A DNA stretch of 33,814 bases from an uncultured Candidatus Poseidoniales archaeon. Lineage in GTDB: Archaea > Thermoplasmatota > Poseidoniia > Poseidoniales > Poseidoniaceae. Shown one piece after another: positions 1-24,681 of the stretch. The number at the start of each line of letters is the position of its first letter. Position 1 is the stretch's first letter. The translations under genes and the position numbers were made by a program. The stretch covers positions 1 to 33,814 of the forward strand of contig CABYOM010000011.1 of assembly GCA_902520595.1 (NCBI GenBank), in the 5' to 3' direction. The notes below the pieces were generated by a model that saw only the letters and a program-made list of their open reading frames with translations, made no database searches and had not been told where the DNA came from.

Positions 1-3000
1 TCAATTGCTTTGTATGCTTCTTCTTCTTCAATTGCCACAAAGGATAGATCCGAATCAGCGACAGCAGTTGCGTTCACCATGCTGTTTTCCACGATGGTGA
101 TTGAAGTGTCTGAGTTAATGCTGCGTGTGTAGGAAAGAGCGACTGGTGAGCGGCCTTCAGCAACAAGCGTCACAGCACCACCAATGTAGTCCATTTCGAG
201 GTTAAGGTCATGCTGAATTGTCTCAAAGGATGAATCCATTTCGATTTCTTCAGCTGGCATCAAGATACTGATGGTTCCGTCATCTCCGACTGGCATATCC
301 CATTCGATGTCAGAGCCGATAGCAAAGGTCACAGACACGGACTCATTCAAGAGAGCAGAGCCGTTAACATCTGCAGAACCTGCGTGGTGGTCATTCAAGT
401 TGATGTCTGTCCAAGAAGTGGTCAGATCAATCCAACCACCAAGTGACATTTCAAGATCGAGTGTTGCGCCATCGGAAATACTTGCATCAAGCAATCCAAC
501 AGCAACACCGCCACCGTTTTCACCAGCGTTGGCTTGTGTTACAACAACAATCCATTCGCCGGGTGCAATGACCGCAGACCATGTCAACTGATTATTTTCA
601 AAGACTGGAGTGACGGTTTGGATATCTCCTGCCATACCGCTCGAAGGATAAAGGACGACCGTCGAGCCGTTCAATCGGTTCGCATCATTGATGTCAGTAA
701 CATTACCGGAAACGACAACGTTTCCAGCAGTCATTTCAATGTCATGCGATTCAGGTTCTGAATAGACAGGGAAAGCGCTTGAGTTCGAGACATTGTATAA
801 TTCAGTGCTGAAACCTTCTTTACTCACTGTGACTTGGTATTCATCATCAATCGGGACAAACAAAGACCAAACTCCAAATTCATCGGTTGTCACGTTCGTA
901 TCGATTTCAGAATTATTCATTCCAAGAATAGAGACCGTTGTGTTTGCAACACCCTCAGTTCCACCAGGTAGGTCATTGTCATCAAGATCCCAGAAGACCT
1001 TTCCGCCAATTTCTACTTCCAAATCTGCATAAATGAGACCGATATCAAGAACACCTTCCACTGCACTATCGGTATGGAATGGTCCGTATTCAAGAGACCA
1101 GTGTCGCTGTGGTGCTGTTTCGTTAAGGAAGAGACTCCAGTTACCTGGCATTATTTCTTCTGAAACATTACCGCTTTGATCAGACTTCGACAGCGTGACA
1201 TTGCCAAATCCGTCATGACTAACCAAAGTAACACGTATTCCAGACATGTTGGAATCAGTGTCCGATTCTTGCAGCTGGAAATTCATTTCTATGACATCTT
1301 GTGAAATCAAAGAAAGATTGTATCGAACGGATGAATCAGGACCAACGGTAAACGGATAGCGCAGAGTTTCAGTGCTGTCGTTATCCGCTATGAAAGGAGC
1401 AACAATCGCTACCCAATCACCTGCTGTGACATAGGAGGCGAAACTACCGTTCTCATCTGAGGCCATGTTAAACCACAGATCGTCGGCTTCATTTCGTAGC
1501 AAGAACTGCTTCTCTACTGCTCCACCGCTGTTGTTCAACAGTTCTCCTGTTACCAGGTACTCATTACGTAGCGGGAATGGAACTGCTTCTTCATATGCAT
1601 CAAGTCCAACAATAACTGGGTCAAACACATTTGCTCCAATGAGTGCATAATCAGATGCATTGCTATCTTCAGCGCTTGTCGAGTTGAGTTGGAATGAGTA
1701 AATTCCAGGCTCTAAAACAACAGTAATGTTGCCCGCAGAGGTATAGTCTGCAGCGGTGTAGTTGTGCTGTTGACCATGGTCATTAAGCGGCATGAGCGTG
1801 AAAGACGGGCTCACAGCCGTGCCATTGGCAAACACACCATCTGCTCCAGCATCCATGAAAATATTGAGTTCAATGGTTATAAAGTCAGGATTGACAAACA
1901 GTTCAACAGGTGTTGGCGCAGCGTCAGCCTCACTGACGATGTTGTAATTGACAACTTCAGTAGAATTCAATGCTTCCACATCAACAGTGAAGTCCCATGC
2001 ACCGTATTGCAGGTTGAATATGAACTCACCAGTATCAGTGATTGGTGACCTCCATTCAAGTCCATCTGCATCGGTGGCTACAACTTCTTGATTATTTTCA
2101 TAACCCGGTGCGAGACCATCCCAAAGTGACGTATTGTCATAAAGGAATACGAAGCCAGTGATTGCAGTGGTTGGTTTGAGGTACATTAGACCGAGATTCA
2201 GTTCAGCATCTCCTGAAAGTTCAATCAACTGACCGCCAGACATCTGAGATGCGATACTAAACGTTGTCATGTGGAAATCATTACCACTCGGTAGCCGAAT
2301 ACTGTAGTTTCCGTCTGTTTCAACAACCGTCGAGAATGACAGGTCATCAGAGATGAAGAAGACATCAAGGCCTGAGGCTGGTTGACTTTCGTCAAGTTTG
2401 ACATTCTCATCTTGTTCAGACCAATCATCGAAATTCAGATCACTGTTGAACAAACCACCGTCAACAACTCGAACACTTCCGTTCACCCAAGTTCCAATTG
2501 CGTAAGCACTTGAAATCGACAAGTCTTCGGTTTCAAGTGTCACGTGGTCGAACAGAATGTAGTCGTCCCCAGTTTCATCAGAAATCGTATAGGATCCCAT
2601 TGGCAACTCGATGTAAACAAGACCTGTTTCATTCGATGTAGCATTCAATGGACCGAACAGAGGGTCGTCATTGGTAAAGGTAACAACTCTATCAGCAACA
2701 TCAGCGTATGCCTCTTGTGTTTGTGGGTCAATAGGCGAAGTGAGTTGTAAAGAGATGTCGTGCATCTCTGGAATACTCATTGCTAATGTGAAATTCTCAG
2801 AGGAATCACCAACGATGAAGGTTTCATTCAATTCATACCAGGTATCGTTGTCAACATCGACTCTGTAGTAATATTCACCTGCCGAAATTGGACCATAGGA
2901 AAAGTTTCCAAATTCATCGGTGATGATTTCAACAACTTCAGAAAGGCCGAGGTCAACGTCAACCAATTCAATGGTTTCATTGGCGAACACAACATCATAG

Positions 3001-6000
3001 AAATCGTCAAGAGTGTCTTCAAAGATTGAACCTGGCATGTTCATTTGCAAGTCATAAGTTGGCGAAATTTCGACATTTACTGGGTCTGGAAGCAAGACTT
3101 CCTTTCCGTTATCCAACTGAGCAATCATGTTGTAAACACCAGGGATTAATCCCGTAATGTAGAACGAACCTGCTTGAACCATTGGGCCAGAGAAATCACC
3201 AGCACCGACAAAGAGACCGGTTCCATTGAGAGTTCCTGTTCCTTCAAACGAACCAGTCGCTTCAAACGAATCACCGACGTGTTCTGTAACCAAGGTAGAA
3301 ATTCCATCAGAAGTTATTCTTCCATTCGCTTCAACTTCTCCGTCTAAGAGGTAAATCTGAGGAGAGGCAGTTGCGTCTTGGAGACAAATCGACTCATTTT
3401 CAGGCATTGGAGCTGTTTCATTATCGAGGCAAGAAACGACGCTCTCAGAGGCAATCCAAGATGCTTCAAGTGTTCCCTTGCCGCTCCAGGTACCGTTACT
3501 TGTGTAGACACGACCATCTGAAATCGAGCGCGTAAATGTTCCTGTGAAGTCATCAGCAAAAGCTACACCCTCGCTTTCGAAAGTTCCATTTTCAGTGAAT
3601 GTCACTTCACCAGTGCCCTGGAGAATTCGACTTTCTTCAGAGGAGAATGAACCATTGGTTGTTGTCAATGTGTAATTTTCAGTCATGGACCATATGTTAC
3701 GCAAAATGAAGTCAGTACTGACCAAGGCATCACCGTCGAAGGATTCGTGCCCGCTCCAAGTTACTTGACCTGACACACCGCTGCTTTCTACAGCAATGTC
3801 AAACGAAGTAGGGACATCGACGAACCGATCTGCTTGTGGAGCAGTGATGTTATGTTGGAATTCACCAAGCCAACTCATGTTGGCAACTTCACCGAGGATT
3901 GCGGTAATATCGTTGATTTGACGGTCTTCGTTGGTTACCGTCAAAATGTCGCCTAAGCCTTGAGAGAAAGCACCAGTACGGATGTTATCTTGAGCGGTGG
4001 TTGGATTGTAATCACCAGCAAAAGCGCTCACACGAATGCGTCCAGCCGGAGCGTCAAACGACCACTTTCCATCATCATCCGCATCGGTATAGCCGATTGG
4101 AACCCAATAGGTGTCCGGATCTAGGTCTTCAACACCCTCGCCCGAGAAAGCGTCACGTTCAATCAAAATTCGAACGCCAGGCAAGCCTTGTCCGTTGTCG
4201 CTCATTGTTACTTGGCCAGAAATTTCTGCACCGGAGTAATACTTGAGAATCTTGACAAGTGTGTTTGTTGAAGCGATTCCAGTGGATTGCTGCTCAGCGG
4301 TTACTGAACTGTTCTCCTCAGCAGTATACCAGTTTGCAATAACAAAGTGATTCTGCATTGCACCGGGTAACGGAAGTGCTTGAGTCAATATACTACCTGG
4401 ACTTCCAGATTGTCCGAAGTGTTGTGCTGGTTGTGGATTAGATGAACCTGCATCGACGCCAAGAGATGACGCACCGTATCCGACGTATGCTCGGGCGAGC
4501 ATGGTGTCGAAGAATGCAGCGTTGTGATCAACACGAACGTCTTGCACCTGTAGTGGATCGATATCAGCACCTGATTGTTGATTGAGGAAATCTTCCGTAA
4601 TAGCGAGGTCAACTTCTTCACGTGTCATTTCATCAGGGAACTCTCCACGCATTGTTTCGTAGACCTCGTCCATGTAAGTGGAAACATCTTGACCACTCAA
4701 GATAGTAGGTGCACCAAAGATACCCATTGGCTGTCCTTGGTTGTAATTCATATCTTCAGTATAACGTCCTGCTCGAGGGTACAATCGGTTGTCAATTGCG
4801 AAGTAACGAATTTCATGATCACGATCGATAGTTTCTCCGGGCGCTCCATTATAATCTTGCACCGAATAATAGTCTTCAAGGTTAATCAATTCGTCATACA
4901 TGTCGATGATTTGACTAGATTCAAGAGACTGGGAAAGCAATTGCACAGTCAGCGAGAGACGGGTATTCTTACGATGGATATTGGTTCCAACCGAGTCGTA
5001 CTCTTCGATGAGATCAGCAGTATACCAGTAATCTCCGATGATGTAATGTGTGGTGTCGTAAATATTGTCCGCACCTGTTCGAATATTGTTGTTGAATGTT
5101 CGGTTCGCTTCGAACAATTCAGACCAGTCACCGTCAACACATGTCAGAGAGAGTGCATCGGTACAGAGCATGCGTTCTCCGTCTTCATAGACACGCCAGT
5201 AAGGTGTCGACTTGTCAAACACTCCATCCGTGTGATGATAACCTTCTGCTAAGGCGATATCATCATTGGTTTGGAAGACTCGGAAACTGCTCAGTTCTGC
5301 CAACTCAATCATTTCATCATGGTCGACGCTTGTTGACATGGTCGTAAAGAGTTCCATTTGTTGAGGATCGTCGAGGTAATTGTCAACGATGTTACTGTAT
5401 CCTGATGTGAAGGCAGTCTCTCCATTTCGGGCTTGATTGTATTCAATGTCGCCTTGGCCAAGTTGCCAAATAAACATCGAGACTAAGTCCTCTTGACTAC
5501 GTGCTAGCAACATATTTCCAGTAGCCGGGATTCCGGACTGGAAGTTATCAGACACTGACGGATGTTCACCGGTATCGAGCGCTTGGAAACCATAGTCCCA
5601 CCATGATACGAATGCTGGACGTTCAGAATAAGTCATATCGGTATCCTGAGATGCAAGCCACTGATACGCAGTATTCCAACCGTTATCATTAAAACCTGAT
5701 CCAAATGAACCGAGATACCAATTTCCGTCATAATTACTGTCATCAAGCAAAGAGAAACCACCAATTTCCCAACGGAAAGCGTCAGGAATGATGTTGTAAA
5801 TCGTTTCGTCAATATCGTCTTCAGCGTTGTTGCTGCCTGGGATAGCCGCATCGAGACCGTATGTGAATTGCTGACCAAACAGCATAATCATGACAAGCAT
5901 GATGGCTGAAAATGACGGTGTACGCCAAACAGCCAATCGTGCTCCACGGATTCGGTCTTCGGGAGAACGAATGCCGAGTTTCTTCCAAGTCTTGACAAGT

Positions 6001-8468
6001 CCGCCCCAGTTTGCCCACTTCCAAAGCGAGACAATACCCCATGCACCGAGAACGGCAATGGCTGGTGTAGCATTGAACATGAATCGAGCCGCAGTCCAAG
6101 CCATGAAAGAGGCAGCCAGTATCCAGATACCGAAGACAAGGTTGGTTTGCTTACGTTCACGAAGAGCAGACCAGATGCACAGAACTCCCATGATCAAGGA
6201 GAGTACAAAGGTAATTGGTCCGAACTGCGCAAAGAGTTGTCCTCTATTGGGTGCGTTTGCTTCTGCAACGGTTCCGAAAATCTTGGTCTTGGTAAAGTAA
6301 CCACTGCCTGTGAACAAGACGTCCCATGCATTGGAAATATTTGCTTGCTTGAGAAGCCACAATGCGAGGAAGAACACAGCACCAGAAGTTGCAAGAACGC
6401 CTAAAATAAGCAACCAAGGCTTGTCTCGGAAACCGGTTGTTACAAAGCTGATCGCCAATGTGAACACGAAGATGAACAAGAACGGTTGAAGGCCAGTGCC
6501 GTCAAGAACCAAGTTGATTTGTGGGTGACCGTAGAACGGTAATGCCATCAAGAAATTGACGCTGAGCATGGTCAAGAACAACACATTGAGCGTTGTAGAA
6601 TCACGACGGCGGAACATGTTGATTGAAACTTGAGCAGCATATGCCAAGAACAGAATCGATGGACCGACAACGAAACCTTTCCATCCAAGAGAGACCACTC
6701 CAAAACTCACACCTGCTAATACAGCAGATGCAAAGGCAGCCTTACGCTGAGTCAAAACAGCCGAAATAGCCGCAATGAACGCTGTTGGAGTCGCTGATGA
6801 AGAACGTAGCAATCGTTCGGTTCCTGCATACTTGACCGCACGTAACCAGAACATGAATCCGAGAGTGAGGAACAGCATGATGAATGCGTCGTGGTCAGCA
6901 AGAGCCCATGTTGTGTGGCTCACGTGAGCCGGCATGAAGGCAATGAGCCAAGCAGCAATAACAGCCGCTTTGTCGTTGATGTGTTCACGTGCAATAGCCG
7001 CAACTGGGAAGATGGTGAGTGCACCGTAAATTGCAGGTAGGGACAATATAGCCCACCATACTGCATCACCGTTGTCAAAGAACGGTTCAAGAATCATAGC
7101 CAAGACTGCAATCGACCATGTGAATATCGGAGGTCGAGGATTGATTCCGCCGACTGGGTAGAACCTGTCTGCGTCAAAAATCATGTGTGCATTGTTGGCA
7201 AGGATGTAATCGACAACACGCTTCATGTACCACGGGTCAGAGCCGCCAGTCATGTCCCAGTTTCCAGTGCCGTAAGCATTCATGGATGGGACAAGATACC
7301 ATTGCGTTCGAATCACTAATCCAAAGAAAAAGGCGAGACCAATCATGACACTGGCCCAGTTTTGATTCCAAAACAGTCGAGCTCCGGAGTATTCGTGATC
7401 TTCGCGATTTACCCAACCGCCCCACGAGTCGTGAGTGGAAATCGAGTAAATTCCAACGCCGATGAAGAATGTTGCTCCAAGCCAAATGAGGCTTCCCCAG
7501 CTGTTTTCTAACATTGCAACTTCAAACATTCCTGCATCATACCAAGTCGAAATTTGATACAATAACCACATGGATGAAAGCGTCATGGCACGTGTATGCC
7601 ATCGTTCAGCAAACATTCCTGCTACGATAAGTGCAATCATTCCAGTGAAGAAAGCAGACCAGTAGCTGAAGTATCCGTGATAGCCTTCAACGGTGTTGAT
7701 TCCCAATTGGTCAGCAACAGTTACACTGTCGTAATGCCAGAGGCTTCCAATGTGAGCCAACGCCCAAATTGCGAGAGCGAATTGGAAAGGTAAGTTGTTC
7801 TTGTTGATGAAGGATGATGTGTCCTTGTTCATGTAGCTGAACCAGCCCTGTTCACTAACAGGCGTCAAATGACCACGAGCAAAGGTCGCAACAAGAGCGC
7901 CCAGCAGAACGAATAGAGTCAGATACGAAAAGAACTGGTAGCCAACGGCTTGATTTTTGAGATTGAAAGTCGATACATAACTCGGTTGTTCGTCAACTGC
8001 TGCCATGTTGTAAATCTCAGGGAGATTCGCAAGGGCATCTCCTGCCATGATGATACCCACGTTGATTCCAACGGCAGTGAAGATAAAAATCGAAGCAAGT
8101 TCGTATCGTCCACGGCTGGCCATGAAATGAACGCCAAAAGTCACAAGTGCGAACAGGAGACCTGTGAATGCACCGTAATCTTGGAGATAAATAATTTCTG
8201 CACCAACAAGAGCAACGGCCAATGTTGAGAGGGAGAGAGTGGCCTTTGAGAAAGATGCAGAGTCAGATTGGTTCAGCATCGATGGAAGTAGTCCAAAGAT
8301 ACTTGCGACGATGACGAATATCATCGGCGTCATGCTGTCTACGTTGAGCTCGAAGTCTACTCCGACGAGCTTGATGGCTGCGATAGCGAGCAGGACTGCT
8401 AGGGGGGCAATTAGCCATCCCAACGGTGCTGCCGGCGCAGTGCTTTGTGTGCCAGTTTTTTGTTCCAT
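1..8468 (-). CDS. aglB: STT3/AglB-family dolichyl-phosphooligosaccharide-protein glycosyltransferase with multi-TM N-terminal extension and giant secreted C-terminal tail; 3' end truncated by window edge
   Basis: Manual reverse-strand translation from ATG at 8468 (MEQKTGTQSTAPAAPLGWLIAPLAVLL...). Frame spot-checked at about 7976, 5597, 3059 and 5-3, and no stop was seen. STT3 signatures: GGSDPWYMKRVVDYIL (~7255), ALADHDAF (~6895), TVAE (~6275), SWWDYGFQALDTG (~5590-5610). Absent from the ORF track because no stop lies within the window. Confidence 0.93.
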   Translation of the reverse strand, partial: MEQKTGTQSTAPAAPLGWLIAPLAVLLAIAAIKLVGVDFELNVDSMTPMIFVIVASIFGLLPSMLNQSDSASFSKATLSLSTLAVALVGAEIIYLQDYGAFTGLLFALVTFGVHFMASRGRYELASIFIFTAVGINVGIIMAGDALANLPEIYNMAAVDEQPSYVSTFNLKNQAVGYQFFSYLTLFVLLGALVATFARGHLTPVSEQGWFSYMNKDTSSFINKNNLPFQFALAIWALAHIGSLWHYDSVTVADQLGINTVEGYHGYFSYWSAFFTGMIALIVAGMFAERWHTRAMTLSSMWLLYQISTWYDAGMFEVAMLENSWGSLIWLGATFFIGVGIYSISTHDSWGGWVNREDHEYSGARLFWNQNWASVMIGLAFFFGLVIRTQWYLVPSMNAYGTGNWDMTGGSDPWYMKRVVDYILANNAHMIFDADRFYPVGGINPRPPIFTWSIAVLAMILEPFFDNGDAVWWAILSLPAIYGALTIFPVAAIAREHINDKAAVIAAWLIAFMPAHVSHTTWALADHDAFIMLFLTLGFMFWLRAVKYAGTERLLRSSSATPTAFIAAISAVLTQRKAAFASAVLAGVSFGVVSLGWKGFVVGPSILFLAYAAQVSINMFRRRDSTTLNVLFLTMLSVNFLMALPFYGHPQINLVLDGTGLQPFLFIFVFTLAISFVTTGFRDKPWLLILGVLATSGAVFFLALWLLKQANISNAWDVLFTGSGYFTKTKIFGTVAEANAPNRGQLFAQFGPITFVLSLIMGVLCIWSALRERKQTNLVFGIWILAASFMAWTAARFMFNATPAIAVLGAWGIVSLWKWANWGGLVKTWKKLGIRSPEDRIRGARLAVWRTPSFSAIMLVMIMLFGQQFTYGLDAAIPGSNNAEDDIDETIYNIIPDAFRWEIGGFSLLDDSNYDGNWYLGSFGSGFNDNGWNTAYQWLASQDTDMTYSERPAFVSWWDYGFQALDTGEHPSVSDNFQSGIPATGNMLLARSQEDLVSMFIWQLGQGDIEYNQARNGETAFTSGYSNIVDNYLDDPQQMELFTTMSTSVDHDEMIELAELSSFRVFQTNDDIALAEGYHHTDGVFDKSTPYWRVYEDGERMLCTDALSLTCVDGDWSELFEANRTFNNNIRTGADNIYDTTHYIIGDYWYTADLIEEYDSVGTNIHRKNTRLSLTVQLLSQSLESSQIIDMYDELINLEDYYSVQDYNGAPGETIDRDHEIRYFAIDNRLYPRAGRYTEDMNYNQGQPMGIFGAPTILSGQDVSTYMDEVYETMRGEFPDEMTREEVDLAITEDFLNQQSGADIDPLQVQDVRVDHNAAFFDTMLARAYVGYGASSLGVDAGSSNPQPAQHFGQSGSPGSILTQALPLPGAMQNHFVIANWYTAEENSSVTAEQQSTGIASTNTLVKILKYYSGAEISGQVTMSDNGQGLPGVRILIERDAFSGEGVEDLDPDTYWVPIGYTDADDDGKWSFDAPAGRIRVSAFAGDYNPTTAQDNIRTGAFSQGLGDILTVTNEDRQINDITAILGEVANMSWLGEFQHNITAPQADRFVDVPTSFDIAVESSGVSGQVTWSGHESFDGDALVSTDFILRNIWSMTENYTLTTTNGSFSSEESRILQGTGEVTFTENGTFESEGVAFADDFTGTFTRSISDGRVYTSNGTWSGKGTLEASWIASESVVSCLDNETAPMPENESICLQDATASPQIYLLDGEVEANGRITSDGISTLVTEHVGDSFEATGSFEGTGTLNGTGLFVGAGDFSGPMVQAGSFYITGLIPGVYNMIAQLDNGKEVLLPDPVNVEISPTYDLQMNMPGSIFEDTLDDFYDVVFANETIELVDVDLGLSEVVEIITDEFGNFSYGPISAGEYYYRVDVDNDTWYELNETFIVGDSSENFTLAMSIPEMHDISLQLTSPIDPQTQEAYADVADRVVTFTNDDPLFGPLNATSNETGLVYIELPMGSYTISDETGDDYILFDHVTLETEDLSISSAYAIGTWVNGSVRVVDGGLFNSDLNFDDWSEQDENVKLDESQPASGLDVFFISDDLSFSTVVETDGNYSIRLPSGNDFHMTTFSIASQMSGGQLIELSGDAELNLGLMYLKPTTAITGFVFLYDNTSLWDGLAPGYENNQEVVATDADGLEWRSPITDTGEFIFNLQYGAWDFTVDVEALNSTEVVNYNIVSEADAAPTPVELFVNPDFITIELNIFMDAGADGVFANGTAVSPSFTLMPLNDHGQQHNYTAADYTSAGNITVVLEPGIYSFQLNSTSAEDSNASDYALIGANVFDPVIVGLDAYEEAVPFPLRNEYLVTGELLNNSGGAVEKQFLLRNEADDLWFNMASDENGSFASYVTAGDWVAIVAPFIADNDSTETLRYPFTVGPDSSVRYNLSLISQDVIEMNFQLQESDTDSNMSGIRVTLVSHDGFGNVTLSKSDQSGNVSEEIMPGNWSLFLNETAPQRHWSLEYGPFHTDSAVEGVLDIGLIYADLEVEIGGKVFWDLDDNDLPGGTEGVANTTVSILGMNNSEIDTNVTTDEFGVWSLFVPIDDEYQVTVSKEGFSTELYNVSNSSAFPVYSEPESHDIEMTAGNVVVSGNVTDINDANRLNGSTVVLYPSSGMAGDIQTVTPVFENNQLTWSAVIAPGEWIVVVTQANAGENGGGVAVGLLDASISDGATLDLEMSLGGWIDLTTSWTDINLNDHHAGSADVNGSALLNESVSVTFAIGSDIEWDMPVGDDGTISILMPAEEIEMDSSFETIQHDLNLEMDYIGGAVTLVAEGRSPVALSYTRSINSDTSITIVENSMVNATAVADSDLSFVAIEEEEAYKAI

Positions 8469-19746: not shown

Positions 19747-22700
19747 ATGAATGCCGTCTTTCGCTCCCTCTGTCTCGCAACTCTCATGGTGATTTCTACT
19801 TCGGTGCCACTTGGTATTTCATCGCTTGAACAAAACCCTGAGGTCACAAATACTTCAAGCCGCTCACAGGTTTGCTCAGGGGATATTTGCCTCAACGAAG
19901 CTCTACCAAATCCAAATGGCTATGATGATGCTACTTGGCCAGATGGCGAATGGATGGAAATCCACAACTCCGGCAACACGACTGTCGATGTTCGAGATTG
20001 GTATATTACCAACAAGGCTTCACGAACTCTCTACTTCAATTCAACATCAATCGTTGACTATGATGCTGCGGATTCGACAAGTTGGGAAATAGAACCCGAT
20101 GAATACATGGTCATCGCACGAAACGGAGTGCCAAATTCAGTGTTCTATCTCACCAACACCAACGATATTGTATCGCTCTTCAATTCAGGAGGGGTTCAAC
20201 TCGACCAAGCAACGTGGACCTTTTCCTCCTCCGGTGCGCCATCGGGTTCAAGCCTTGAAGAAGACAGTTCCAACGCAACCAACGATTGGGTTACTACAAA
20301 TGGTCCTACACCTGGTGCAATAAATTCAGGTGGTTCAACAGGCGGGCCAACCACCTATGCATCTGATTTAATCATCAGTGAAGTCATGCCAAATCCCTGG
20401 CCTTCCGATGATAATGCTTCATGGCCAGGTGGAGAATGGGTTGAGGTTTTCAATTCAGGAGTAGATGAAATAGACTTGACCGGTTGGACTATTCAAGATA
20501 CTGCTGGAAATGCTCTCGAGTTCGATGCTGACCATTTGATAGGATTTACAGCCAATGCAAGTTCAATGAAAATCCTGCCTGGAGAAACACGAATAGTTGC
20601 TGTAAATGGCTCTGGAACTTCTGGAGTGTTGAACAATGGTGTTGAAACATTGTCATTGTATTGGCCGAACGGTACAAAGTCCCAGCAGATCACATGGACC
20701 AACACAAAGTCTGGTTTTTCTATGGTCGAAAGCAGCTCATCTCAATATTGGGACTATGCTGCTTATCCATCGCCCAATGCAAGTAATCCTCTTGAATTTG
20801 CAATCATCGCTATGACACCATCTCCAATCGAATTTTCCGAACTCCTGTCAAACAGTAGTTCAGATGGTACGGCTTTCCCTGACGGGGAATGGATTGAATT
20901 GCTCAACACCGGATCCTCTACTGTAGATTTGACAGGTTGGTCAATCATTGACGGCATCGGTAATGTCACGTATTTAGATCCCGGATCGCTGATTTTTAAC
21001 CAAACTCAAGGTTCGTCATTAATCGATGCTGAAGAACGACGATTGGTCCAATTTAACGGAGACACGCAGTTGTGGGATTATTACAATCAACTCATGCTCC
21101 GAGATGCCAATGGGATGATCGTTGATACTGCTTGGTATGTTACGAACTATGGGCTGAATGTTTCGCTTATTCCCGCTGAAAATGACGCTGACCCTTGGGT
21201 TCCTTCAACCTGGATGACACCGGGTCAGCCAGATCCTAGTGAGACGCCTTCAACAGGCCTCGTTATTTTCACTGAAGTGTTCCCTGATGCTGTTGGAAGT
21301 GATTCACAACAGTGGCCTCTCGGCGAATGGTTGGAGATTTATAATAACGGCACGACCGCTCTGGATGTCGGTGGTTGGAAATTACAATCCTCTAACAGCC
21401 GCTCTTTAACACTCCATCAATTCAATATGCCCTTACAATCAACATCGGTAATTCAACCTGGAGAAGTTGCCCTCGTAGCGCTTAATGGCACGACCAGTTT
21501 CTATCTCAAGCACACGACGCCAGATTCGATTGTGTTGATTGACTTAAGCGGTAACATGGTTGATTCCATGTCATGGACTTCCACTGTCGAAGGTGAATCA
21601 TTAATTCCGTCGAACAGCAGTCACGCTGGGGCGGGACCACTTGGAGACGGCGCTTCTAACAGCAGTGGCTGGATACAGTCGGCATGGGCTACACCGGGGC
21701 AAATTAATCCTGTCTGGCCCGCATATTCAGGAACACATGACCTCGTAATGACTGAAATTCTCGCCTATTGTAACGGTGATTCAATCGAACCAGTTGAGGA
21801 TTGGGTAGAGGTCATGAATACCGGAATTGAAGACCTTAATTTAAGCCGCTGGAGGTTGGACACAAATGATGGAGATCGAAGGTTCTTCAGGACCACTTCA
21901 ATGTGGAATTTATCGGATGATTCAATGATTCTAGCACCTCAACAACGCGCTGTGCTGTTGATGGAAAGCAACATCATCTCTGGTTTAAGCGACCAAATTC
22001 ACCTCTCCGACCCCGATGGCGTCCTTGTACAAACCGCTCAATGGAATATCGTTAGTGATTGTCAAACCATGGGACCTGGAGAAGTAGAAACTGACAGCTG
22101 GGAGTTGTTATTATGGCCAACACCTGGAACAGAGGAGCCCGATGAGAGCTTGTTTGCAGAAGCACAAGACATCGTCCTCAGTCGATTTATGCCAGAAGGT
22201 TCTACTGATATTTCAAGCAATACTGAATTCATTGAAATCACCAACATTGGAGACAGCCTTGCTTACATGAACGGCTGGACCTTAACCCTGATTAATTCTG
22301 CAAATGATGCAACGGATTACTCGTTCACAGAAGTTGCTATTCCTTCCAACGGTTCTGTCATAATTGCAACTGATTACAGTGGCCTTTCAGTATACGAAGA
22401 CGGTGCAATTATTGCTTTTGATACGGCTCTTTCACCCCCAGGATTCACGCTTCCAGATTCGGGAGCTACTCTTCAGATTACCACACCTGCTGGTGTTCTT
22501 GCAGATACTGTTGCCTACGGAAACGGACCTGTCGAAGTTCAAGGATGGAGCGGTATAAGTTTGGTAGAACCGGTTTCAAGTATCCCTCTCTTGGTTTATC
22601 ACCGTGGTGATGGTTGTGGGAATTTACCTGATACAGACGTAGCAGTCGACTGGCAACACCGATGGGGGCGTTTAGGAGGAAGTACATTCTGCGGTCCAAC

Positions 22701-24681
22701 TCTTTTCTCCGGTTCCAGTGTCGTCACTCCGTTAATTGGTCCACAAGACGGTTTGGTTGACTTGCTTGCATGGATTGGTGGTGCAAATGAATCGCTTCAC
22801 GTCCACCTTTACCAAATTGAACAACCGAATTTAGTCCAAGCACTCATCGAAGCACACAACCGTGGTGTTGACGTTACTGTTGTTCTCAACCACGCAGAGT
22901 ATTGGTGGAATAATTACGATAAAAACAACCAATTAGGGACGGCGAATTATCTTGCAACTGCTGGAATAAACACTCTTTGGTTCGGTGGACAGAGCGATGA
23001 ACCTTACACGTATATCCACAGCAAAGTAGCTGTCAAGGATAACGAGAGTATTTGGATTGGTTCAGGAAACTGGAAGAGTTCGTCTCAACCTGCTCCGGAT
23101 GATCGAGGAAACTCTGAGTGGGGAGTCATTGTAGAGAACATAGAACTGGCGAACAAGGTTATGGAACAACTCGCATATGATGAATCGGAAAGTCGTACTT
23201 ACATCACCCAAGTAAACCCGGGTTCTGGACCTTCTGACTGGTCGATGGATTCGCTCAAATCGGTAGCCAATGGAACGCTCGCTGAACCGATCACAACCGA
23301 TGTCTCTGGCCGACTAATTACCTGCCCAGATACATGTGTTGACGGCTTGGTTTGGATGATTGAACAAGCTGATGAAGAAATACTGTTGTCCCTCCAATAT
23401 TTCGATGTTGAATGGAGTTGGGGATGGGGAGATAATCCCATTGTAAATGCACTGGAAAAGGCAGCGCAAAATGATGTGCGCATTCGATTGATTTTGAACG
23501 GTGCATACCTTGACAAAGACATACAGGAAGTTGTTGACACGTTCAATGAAGACTGGAACACGACACTTGGCTATGACGTCAGTGCAGTGGTAATGAGCGA
23601 GGATGATGAAGTTTCAAAATTGCACAACAAGGGCGTAATTATTGACGAAGAACACGTACTTATTTCCTCAATTAACTGGGGGGACTCTGCTCCAACCAGA
23701 AATCGCGAGATGGGACTCATTCTCAGCAGTGCTGAAGTCACGGCTCCATTCCTTGCAGGATGGCACAGAGATTGGGTTCGAACAGATAACGTCACTGACA
23801 CCGATAACGATGGCATGCCAGACTATTGGGAGGTCGCTAATGGACTGAACCGAACAACTCGAACCCTTGGCAATCTCAACATGCTTGAGGGAGAATACGA
23901 TGCAGATGGAGACGGTCTGAGCAACGAAGTCGAATACGTCTACGGTAGTCATGCAACGAATGCAGATACGGATGGTGACTGTATACTGGATGCCGTCGAA
24001 GTTTCATGGGCTCAGTCAACTGCAATGGATTCCACTCTCTTTGACGTATCTCCAACCGATGCGCTAACGCTTGCAGACGCAGACGGAGACGGCATCAATG
24101 AATCTGAGGTGCTCGGATGTGACCTGGGAGGTGTTTTGTTGGATGATGACCAAACGGTTGTTGACAATGGCTCATTAGATGACGATGGAGACATGGTAAT
24201 CAACCGAGATGATTTGTGCCCGAATACCACTGCAAATATTCCAGTCGATTCAAACGGCTGTTCGACTGAGCAACGAAACTCCAACGCTACACCAAGCGCG
24301 GATACAAGTTCGAACCTTGGAGCCGGCATGATGCTTCTTCTGATGCTTGGAGGCGTTGCGTTAGCAGGTGGAGCATTCTTCATTTTGAGAAATATCGAAA
24401 CAGAGGGTGAAGAAATGAAGGATCAGATTACACTTGAAAGCGAAAACCTCGATGCATTGGCGAACGGAGAAATCAATGCAGAAAATTGGCAAATACCCGT
24501 TCTTGACAGCAGTGCAGATGATGTAAAACCTACTGGCATATCCCCAGAAGATTTAGCTCGTTGCCCAGGATGGCCTGAAGAAACGATTCAAAAATATCTT
24601 GACCAAGGATGGCCAATGGATGAACTGGCAGCATACTATCAAGAACAGGTCGACCAACACTCCTCAAGAACACAAGATTGA
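19747..24681 (+). CDS. secreted/anchored phospholipase D-superfamily protein with six lamin-tail-like domains, TSP3-like repeats, C-terminal TM and cytoplasmic tail
   Basis: ORF 1644 aa; signal peptide; six LTD-like units (e.g. EALPNPNGYDDATWPDGEWMEIHNSGNTTVDVRDWYI, EVMPNPWPSDDNASWPGGEWVEVFNSGVDEIDLTGWTI); HKD motifs HSKVAVKDNESIWIGSGNW and HNKGVIIDEEHVLISSINW; DADGDGLSNEVEY, DADGDGINESE; TM MMLLLMLGGVALAGGAFFIL. Confidence 0.9.
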   Translation: MNAVFRSLCLATLMVISTSVPLGISSLEQNPEVTNTSSRSQVCSGDICLNEALPNPNGYDDATWPDGEWMEIHNSGNTTVDVRDWYITNKASRTLYFNSTSIVDYDAADSTSWEIEPDEYMVIARNGVPNSVFYLTNTNDIVSLFNSGGVQLDQATWTFSSSGAPSGSSLEEDSSNATNDWVTTNGPTPGAINSGGSTGGPTTYASDLIISEVMPNPWPSDDNASWPGGEWVEVFNSGVDEIDLTGWTIQDTAGNALEFDADHLIGFTANASSMKILPGETRIVAVNGSGTSGVLNNGVETLSLYWPNGTKSQQITWTNTKSGFSMVESSSSQYWDYAAYPSPNASNPLEFAIIAMTPSPIEFSELLSNSSSDGTAFPDGEWIELLNTGSSTVDLTGWSIIDGIGNVTYLDPGSLIFNQTQGSSLIDAEERRLVQFNGDTQLWDYYNQLMLRDANGMIVDTAWYVTNYGLNVSLIPAENDADPWVPSTWMTPGQPDPSETPSTGLVIFTEVFPDAVGSDSQQWPLGEWLEIYNNGTTALDVGGWKLQSSNSRSLTLHQFNMPLQSTSVIQPGEVALVALNGTTSFYLKHTTPDSIVLIDLSGNMVDSMSWTSTVEGESLIPSNSSHAGAGPLGDGASNSSGWIQSAWATPGQINPVWPAYSGTHDLVMTEILAYCNGDSIEPVEDWVEVMNTGIEDLNLSRWRLDTNDGDRRFFRTTSMWNLSDDSMILAPQQRAVLLMESNIISGLSDQIHLSDPDGVLVQTAQWNIVSDCQTMGPGEVETDSWELLLWPTPGTEEPDESLFAEAQDIVLSRFMPEGSTDISSNTEFIEITNIGDSLAYMNGWTLTLINSANDATDYSFTEVAIPSNGSVIIATDYSGLSVYEDGAIIAFDTALSPPGFTLPDSGATLQITTPAGVLADTVAYGNGPVEVQGWSGISLVEPVSSIPLLVYHRGDGCGNLPDTDVAVDWQHRWGRLGGSTFCGPTLFSGSSVVTPLIGPQDGLVDLLAWIGGANESLHVHLYQIEQPNLVQALIEAHNRGVDVTVVLNHAEYWWNNYDKNNQLGTANYLATAGINTLWFGGQSDEPYTYIHSKVAVKDNESIWIGSGNWKSSSQPAPDDRGNSEWGVIVENIELANKVMEQLAYDESESRTYITQVNPGSGPSDWSMDSLKSVANGTLAEPITTDVSGRLITCPDTCVDGLVWMIEQADEEILLSLQYFDVEWSWGWGDNPIVNALEKAAQNDVRIRLILNGAYLDKDIQEVVDTFNEDWNTTLGYDVSAVVMSEDDEVSKLHNKGVIIDEEHVLISSINWGDSAPTRNREMGLILSSAEVTAPFLAGWHRDWVRTDNVTDTDNDGMPDYWEVANGLNRTTRTLGNLNMLEGEYDADGDGLSNEVEYVYGSHATNADTDGDCILDAVEVSWAQSTAMDSTLFDVSPTDALTLADADGDGINESEVLGCDLGGVLLDDDQTVVDNGSLDDDGDMVINRDDLCPNTTANIPVDSNGCSTEQRNSNATPSADTSSNLGAGMMLLLMLGGVALAGGAFFILRNIETEGEEMKDQITLESENLDALANGEINAENWQIPVLDSSADDVKPTGISPEDLARCPGWPEETIQKYLDQGWPMDELAAYYQEQVDQHSSRTQD

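Follow-up and report, generated by a model that had tools for sequence, protein, structure and literature searches.

Characterised AglB oligosaccharyltransferases measure approximately 600–1,050 residues. The window analysed here (33,814 nucleotides from an uncultured Poseidoniaceae archaeon) begins with a far longer reading frame of this family, which raises the question of whether a single polypeptide of this size is real and what its additional parts do. On re-translation, the giant STT3/AglB oligosaccharyltransferase gene (3..8468, minus strand, as are all of its parts given below) runs from the ATG at 8468 to base 3 as a single uninterrupted frame of 2,822 codons, with no stop or frameshift. 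The initial annotation, which reported at least 2,822 codons still open at the edge, was correct on this point. The ORF is incomplete because the first base of the window is also base 1 of its contig (C11); the frame runs off there and no extension is possible. Relatives are even larger, at approximately 3,190 codons. A GTG located 57 bases upstream of the ATG would give 19 more codons. This start was rejected, as a stop codon is found just before the ATG in relatives (L004–L007).

A homologue was identified in 59 of 60 relatives, with a single frame of approximately 3,120–3,330 codons where the contigs allow. The closest loci belong to Candidatus Poseidoniaceae/Poseidoniales (marine group II), the nearest being UBA91 (98% in the core). 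Among 79 complete distinct homologous ORFs drawn from many independent assemblies, 77 are single frames of 2,975–3,335 codons, and both Poseidoniales families are represented. The two exceptions have 1,447 and 2,002 codons; in the latter, the rest of the protein comes immediately after, in the neighbouring frame. Two loci in the complete set, AH-287-P07 and AH-273-F07, carry plate-format names that suggest a single-cell origin. In one single-contig relative (G061, locus L181, 4943–14520), a frame change splits the gene into parts of 1,603 and 1,646 codons that overlap by 58 codons, probably through an indel in the assembly. The split gene and the open contig edge are what could be said for an assembly chimera or a mis-predicted frame. 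Against it, single giant frames recur across many independent assemblies and in both families, the two loci with single-cell-style names included. The agreement of 77 of the 79 ORFs thus excludes a chimera of core and tail, and we leave this explanation virtually no probability.

The proposed STT3/AglB identity is borne out by profile searches. Pfam STT3 (PF02516) matches residues 408–670 with 54.3 bits, above the gathering score of 24.5, and TIGR04154 also matches the core (E 7e-47). The latter match reaches 160.2 bits, well under the curated cut-off of 450, and an assignment to the archaeosortase-associated STT3 proteins was rejected on this basis. The order-level core profile identifies A. 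fulgidus AglB (3waj) in the PDB with an E value of 2.7e-14. The GT-C membrane domain comprises approximately residues 362–870 (5859..7385), a region that also matches the 3waj profile, and its hydropathy shows segments compatible with 13 transmembrane helices, although hydropathy does not give the exact count. The catalytic extracellular globular region follows at approximately residues 871–1411 (4236..5858). Its boundary is approximate and is based on the conservation profile and on PDB matches to 3vu0 and 3vgp, which are isolated AglB globular domains.

All four catalytic signatures that had been read from the sequence are present: GSDPWYM, the first acidic or DXD-type motif (7224..7244, residues 409–415); ADHD, the second acidic motif (6888..6899, residues 524–527); TVAE, the TIxE/SVSE-type motif of external loop 5 (6261..6272, residues 733–736); and WWDYG, the sequon-binding motif (5589..5603, residues 956–960). 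Over 19 aligned homologues, GSDPWYM and WWDYG are invariant, as are D-H-D of the second motif and T and E of the third. The two acidic motifs, the TIxE/SVSE glutamate and WWDYG stand in the expected order on the same GT-C core as in A. fulgidus AglB. Judged from its sequence, the Poseidoniales enzyme is probably active. It is the only STT3/AglB oligosaccharyltransferase found in this archaeon. In a published study, an MGII oligosaccharyltransferase gene was one of the genes transcribed at higher levels during activity of genus O1 (PMC9723583).

Approximately 360 residues stand ahead of the first STT3 helix. This N-terminal extension (7386..8468, residues 1–361) is predicted to contain ten transmembrane helices, and the AlphaFold2 model likewise consists of ten membrane helices (pLDDT 81.6, pTM 0.83). 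It is specific to the Poseidoniales. A profile of the extension finds matches in 63 of the 64 Poseidoniales genomes sampled and no credible match in the other 179 genomes of the phylum, where one weak match covers the STT3 helix itself. Pfam and PDB sequences gave no convincing match, and Foldseek of the modelled domain gave none against PDB and viral structures, so its assignment to a known family or fold was rejected. No copy outside the fusion was found in its own genome. As a guess, the domain could be a binding site for the lipid-linked donor or for a partner in secretion. In L047 and L048 (families f20 and f13), a GTDPYY motif is located near residue 292, and that lineage therefore carries an N-terminal extension of its own; the Poseidoniales profile has no match in G174, the source of L048.

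The arm (3..4235) is a sequon-rich string of β-sandwich modules approximately 1,800 residues long, which in relatives ends about 370 residues beyond the window. The claim of more than 1,800 residues after WWDYG is, if anything, an underestimate: 1,800 are visible in the window, and the tail from WWDYG to the end measures approximately 2,200 residues in complete homologues. In complete relatives, more arm follows and then a single predicted transmembrane helix, after which comes a short basic tip whose last residues are -RF or -PF; this arrangement is conserved. With such a C-terminus, the arm is predicted to be a loop tethered to the membrane at both ends. The residues past the final helix are conserved by lineage in the long-armed STT3 proteins (-RF, -PAPF, -RGVFSRRK) and may be an interaction or sorting signal.

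The first β module (ISGQVTMSDNGQGLPGVRILIERD...) lies directly after the catalytic domain (3969..4229, residues 1414–1500), and the best CarboxypepD_reg module is found at residues 2505–2558 (795..956; Pfam PF13620, E 8.3e-12). AlphaFold2 predicts residues 1391–2590 to be all-β with a pLDDT of 87.5 and a global pTM of 0.44; high local and low global confidence is as expected for beads on a string. A glycine-rich region (3189..3650, residues 1607–1760) has unusually long strands of 14–26 residues in the predicted secondary structure of the model. It lies in a stretch without alignment to other lineages and may be a separate fold.

The carboxypeptidase-regulatory, CNA-B and SdrD-like character given to the tail agrees with its Pfam matches (CarboxypepD_reg, SdrD_B and SpaA, as well as a NOMO-like module), and in a Foldseek search with the tail model, adhesin and pilin structures of the Cna-B/SdrD type rank first. 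By sequence, the only significant solved relative of the Poseidoniales arm profile in the PDB is NOMO2 (E 5.5e-8), which the arms of other Thermoplasmatota match at 1.2e-28 and 5.8e-25. Pfam NOMO_5th matches at E values down to 1.4e-19, and there are matches to the EMC7 β-sandwich; both are ER membrane-biogenesis proteins. General CarboxypepD_reg models give far stronger scores. NOMO is one of the few long many-module proteins of its class in the PDB, and the NOMO2 match therefore points to a shared module class and layout rather than to proven orthology.

Of the "adhesin- or S-layer-like stalk" described in the initial annotation, the Cna-B-like fold stands. The free adhesin stalk was not kept because of the C-terminal membrane anchor, and the only solved protein with strong sequence similarity to the arm is NOMO, which serves as a scaffold in the ER lumen. 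Proteins with Cna-B/SdrD-B modules share the module fold but are free stalks on bacterial cell walls, whereas the arm returns to the membrane; no LPxTG-type end was seen in it. NOMO forms a complex with TMEM147 and nicalin. In the BOS complex of the multipass translocon (9c7v), it resembles the arm: a transthyretin/prealbumin-like array faces the outer (lumenal-equivalent) side and is closed by one transmembrane helix with a short tip. However, NOMO is a separate type I protein of the ER with a free N-terminus, whereas in the archaeal protein one ORF joins the array to STT3, and both ends of the arm are anchored.

The giant protein is not the trait of one ORF that it had been taken for, as long arms occur across the phylum. 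STT3 frames measure approximately 2,300–2,375 codons in f3, the sister family within the class; 2,360–2,744, 2,080–2,260 or 1,860–1,900 codons in many other families; and 930–1,430 codons in several short-tailed families. All long tails that could be followed to their ends carry the final membrane helix; short tails do not. Over 1,288 columns, the Poseidoniales arm can be aligned with the arm of other lineages (E 1.6e-73), and the long arms are therefore homologous in those lineages; its match to the arms of Thermoplasmatales is weak. The first 440 or so tail positions in Poseidoniales, including the glycine-rich region, fall outside this alignment. In a midpoint-rooted core tree, the short-tailed forms are placed both basally and nested. 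A split of the fusion into a separate neighbouring arm gene was seen at none of six loci from short-tailed lineages. No description of this architecture was found among open-access papers, an absence that is not proof. One STT3 phylogeny discarded sequences that were "too long" (PMC4973528), a step that could have hidden such proteins.

Sequons were counted in 15 Poseidoniales arms, with D, Q and reversed motifs as controls. NxT occurs 368 times against 133 expected (2.76-fold) and NxS 249 times against 143 (1.74-fold), while the controls are flat (DxT 1.01, DxS 1.12, QxT 1.14, reversed TxN 1.04). A composition effect was rejected on the strength of these controls. NP[S/T] is depleted, with 3 observed and 10.2 expected. 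The arm in the window has 23 NxT against 6.9 expected, the membrane and catalytic parts show no sequon excess, and arms elsewhere in the phylum show the same excess (NxT 3.2-fold). The preference for T over S and the absence before proline are what selection for N-glycosylation would produce. The NxT and NxS excess and the NP[S/T] depletion would offer indirect support for transfer of a lipid-linked glycan to N-x-S/T. The enzyme is the obvious agent of arm glycosylation, since 138 of the 139 class genomes with an STT3 match have just one.

One family departs from this pattern. All nine genomes tested from family f17 carry mcrA, which identifies the family as methanogens, probably Methanomethylophilaceae. 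We aligned 30 of its STT3-like proteins from 11 genera. GxD, TIxE and WWDYG are kept in genus g95 only; 27 sequences from ten genera (L184–L202, L206–L212, L214) lack both WWDYG and TIxE, and the GSD aspartate is also missing from 22 of these 27. An intermediate state, WLDYG or WLDFG, is seen in genus g138. Complete proteins among the 27, approximately 1,830–2,555 codons, retain the arm, the C-terminal helix and the basic tip. The persistence of arm and anchor after motif loss suggests that the protein is retained for a purpose other than catalysis, and the motif-less forms are candidate pseudo-oligosaccharyltransferases. These methanogens may have a replacement oligosaccharyltransferase of another family. 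In the first 19 proteins examined, NxT is 1.18-fold. L205, a motif-intact member of g95, has no sequon excess either, so the excess does not track motif integrity perfectly.

The reading that we favour, and to which we give an even chance, is that an active single-polypeptide oligosaccharyltransferase glycosylates its own arm, anchored at both ends, and that the arm scaffolds the surface around the secretion site. The polypeptide would combine four parts: the ten-helix domain, the GT-C core, the extracellular WWDYG domain and the NOMO/Cna-B-type arm. Returning to the membrane through the final helix, with its short basic tip in the cytoplasm, the arm would form an extracellular loop beside the active site. 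The enzyme would glycosylate this arm, either its own or that of a neighbouring molecule, while modifying secreted proteins, and the coated arms would become part of a cell-surface glycoprotein scaffold around the site of secretion and glycosylation. The initial annotation had suggested that the enzyme may also be a structural component of the surface. A role in addition to catalysis gains support from the sequon-rich arms and from the methanogens that keep the arm after motif loss. The ORF, its conservation, its motifs and the sequon excess are observed directly, and the module fold and, in relatives, the C-terminal anchor are predicted with them to give a firm anatomy; enzyme activity, glycosylation in situ and the surface or translocon scaffold itself are what we infer. 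The N-terminal membrane domain, final helix, phylum-wide spread, NOMO likeness, sequon excess and motif-less methanogens were absent from that annotation.

Several points speak against a surface scaffold. Enzymes are seldom abundant enough to form a coat, and a doubly tethered arm cannot stretch out in the manner of a free stalk. Only weak sequon enrichment is seen in the remaining presumed surface proteins of the window, and the intact L205 lacks the excess. NOMO acts inside the ER at the translocon, and by analogy a protein-handling role would also suit the arm. The arm could be a NOMO- or ribophorin-like chaperone or scaffold at the translocon that holds chains as they emerge and offers them to the catalytic site, its sequons being incidental, as they are on many proteins of the secretory pathway. 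The NOMO2, NOMO_5th and EMC7 matches favour such an accessory, as does an array that ends, as in NOMO, in one transmembrane helix and a short tip, and the fusion would place it at the active site. The scores, however, are summed over many modules and favour NOMO as one of the few long arrays in the PDB, general CarboxypepD_reg models do far better, and adhesin and pilin modules come first by fold. The sequon excess is also specific and is lost where the motifs are lost, as though selection acted on glycosylation of the arm itself. We consider this accessory role possible, at well below an even chance; it overlaps with the self-glycosylated scaffold.

Alternatively, the protein may be a conventional oligosaccharyltransferase whose repeat tail has expanded and is largely dispensable, its size reflecting drift of a modular linker. 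Across the phylum, the tail after WWDYG ranges from approximately 300 to 2,350 residues, and several short-tailed lineages have no final helix, a pattern that such drift would leave. Yet the length is held within the range given above across the order despite a tail identity of 20–40%, every long tail followed to its end has the anchor, and the arm outlasts the catalytic motifs. We regard drift as quite unlikely.

Compared with characterised AglB proteins, the Poseidoniales protein of approximately 3,190 residues, with its ten-helix N-terminal domain and membrane-tethered β-module arm, appears to have an architecture new to its known enzyme family, in which the membrane domain is order-specific and without a solved fold match and the arm is phylum-wide. 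It belongs to the archaea that are most abundant at the ocean surface, its arm looks heavily sugar-coated, and it is probably also part of the cell-surface machinery. For these dominant archaea, which have no cultured representative, it offers a concrete and testable surface glycoprotein system. Thermoplasmatales are described as having no S-layer but an unordered, likely glycoprotein layer of unidentified nature (PMC12448462), and the protein is a candidate for the coat of S-layer-less Thermoplasmatota. A more far-reaching version holds that the Thermoplasmatota oligosaccharyltransferase is fused to a NOMO relative, that self-glycosylated arms help to build this layer and that the methanogen family has converted the whole enzyme into a non-catalytic scaffold; taken as a whole, we find it doubtful. 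An N-glycosylation enzyme physically tied to NOMO-like modules would be a possible prokaryotic precedent for ER machinery, and the motif-less methanogen forms are natural mutants in which the role of the arm is parted from catalysis.

The giant gene adjoins purD. In both Poseidoniales families, an S8 subtilase gene is found directly downstream on the same strand (L182, 3156–4388; L183, 2119–3408), a position just beyond the edge of the window. Elsewhere in the window, 19747–24681 (plus strand) encodes a presumed surface protein of 1,644 residues; it contains six lamin-tail and two PLD-like domains, and a membrane helix lies close to its C-terminus.
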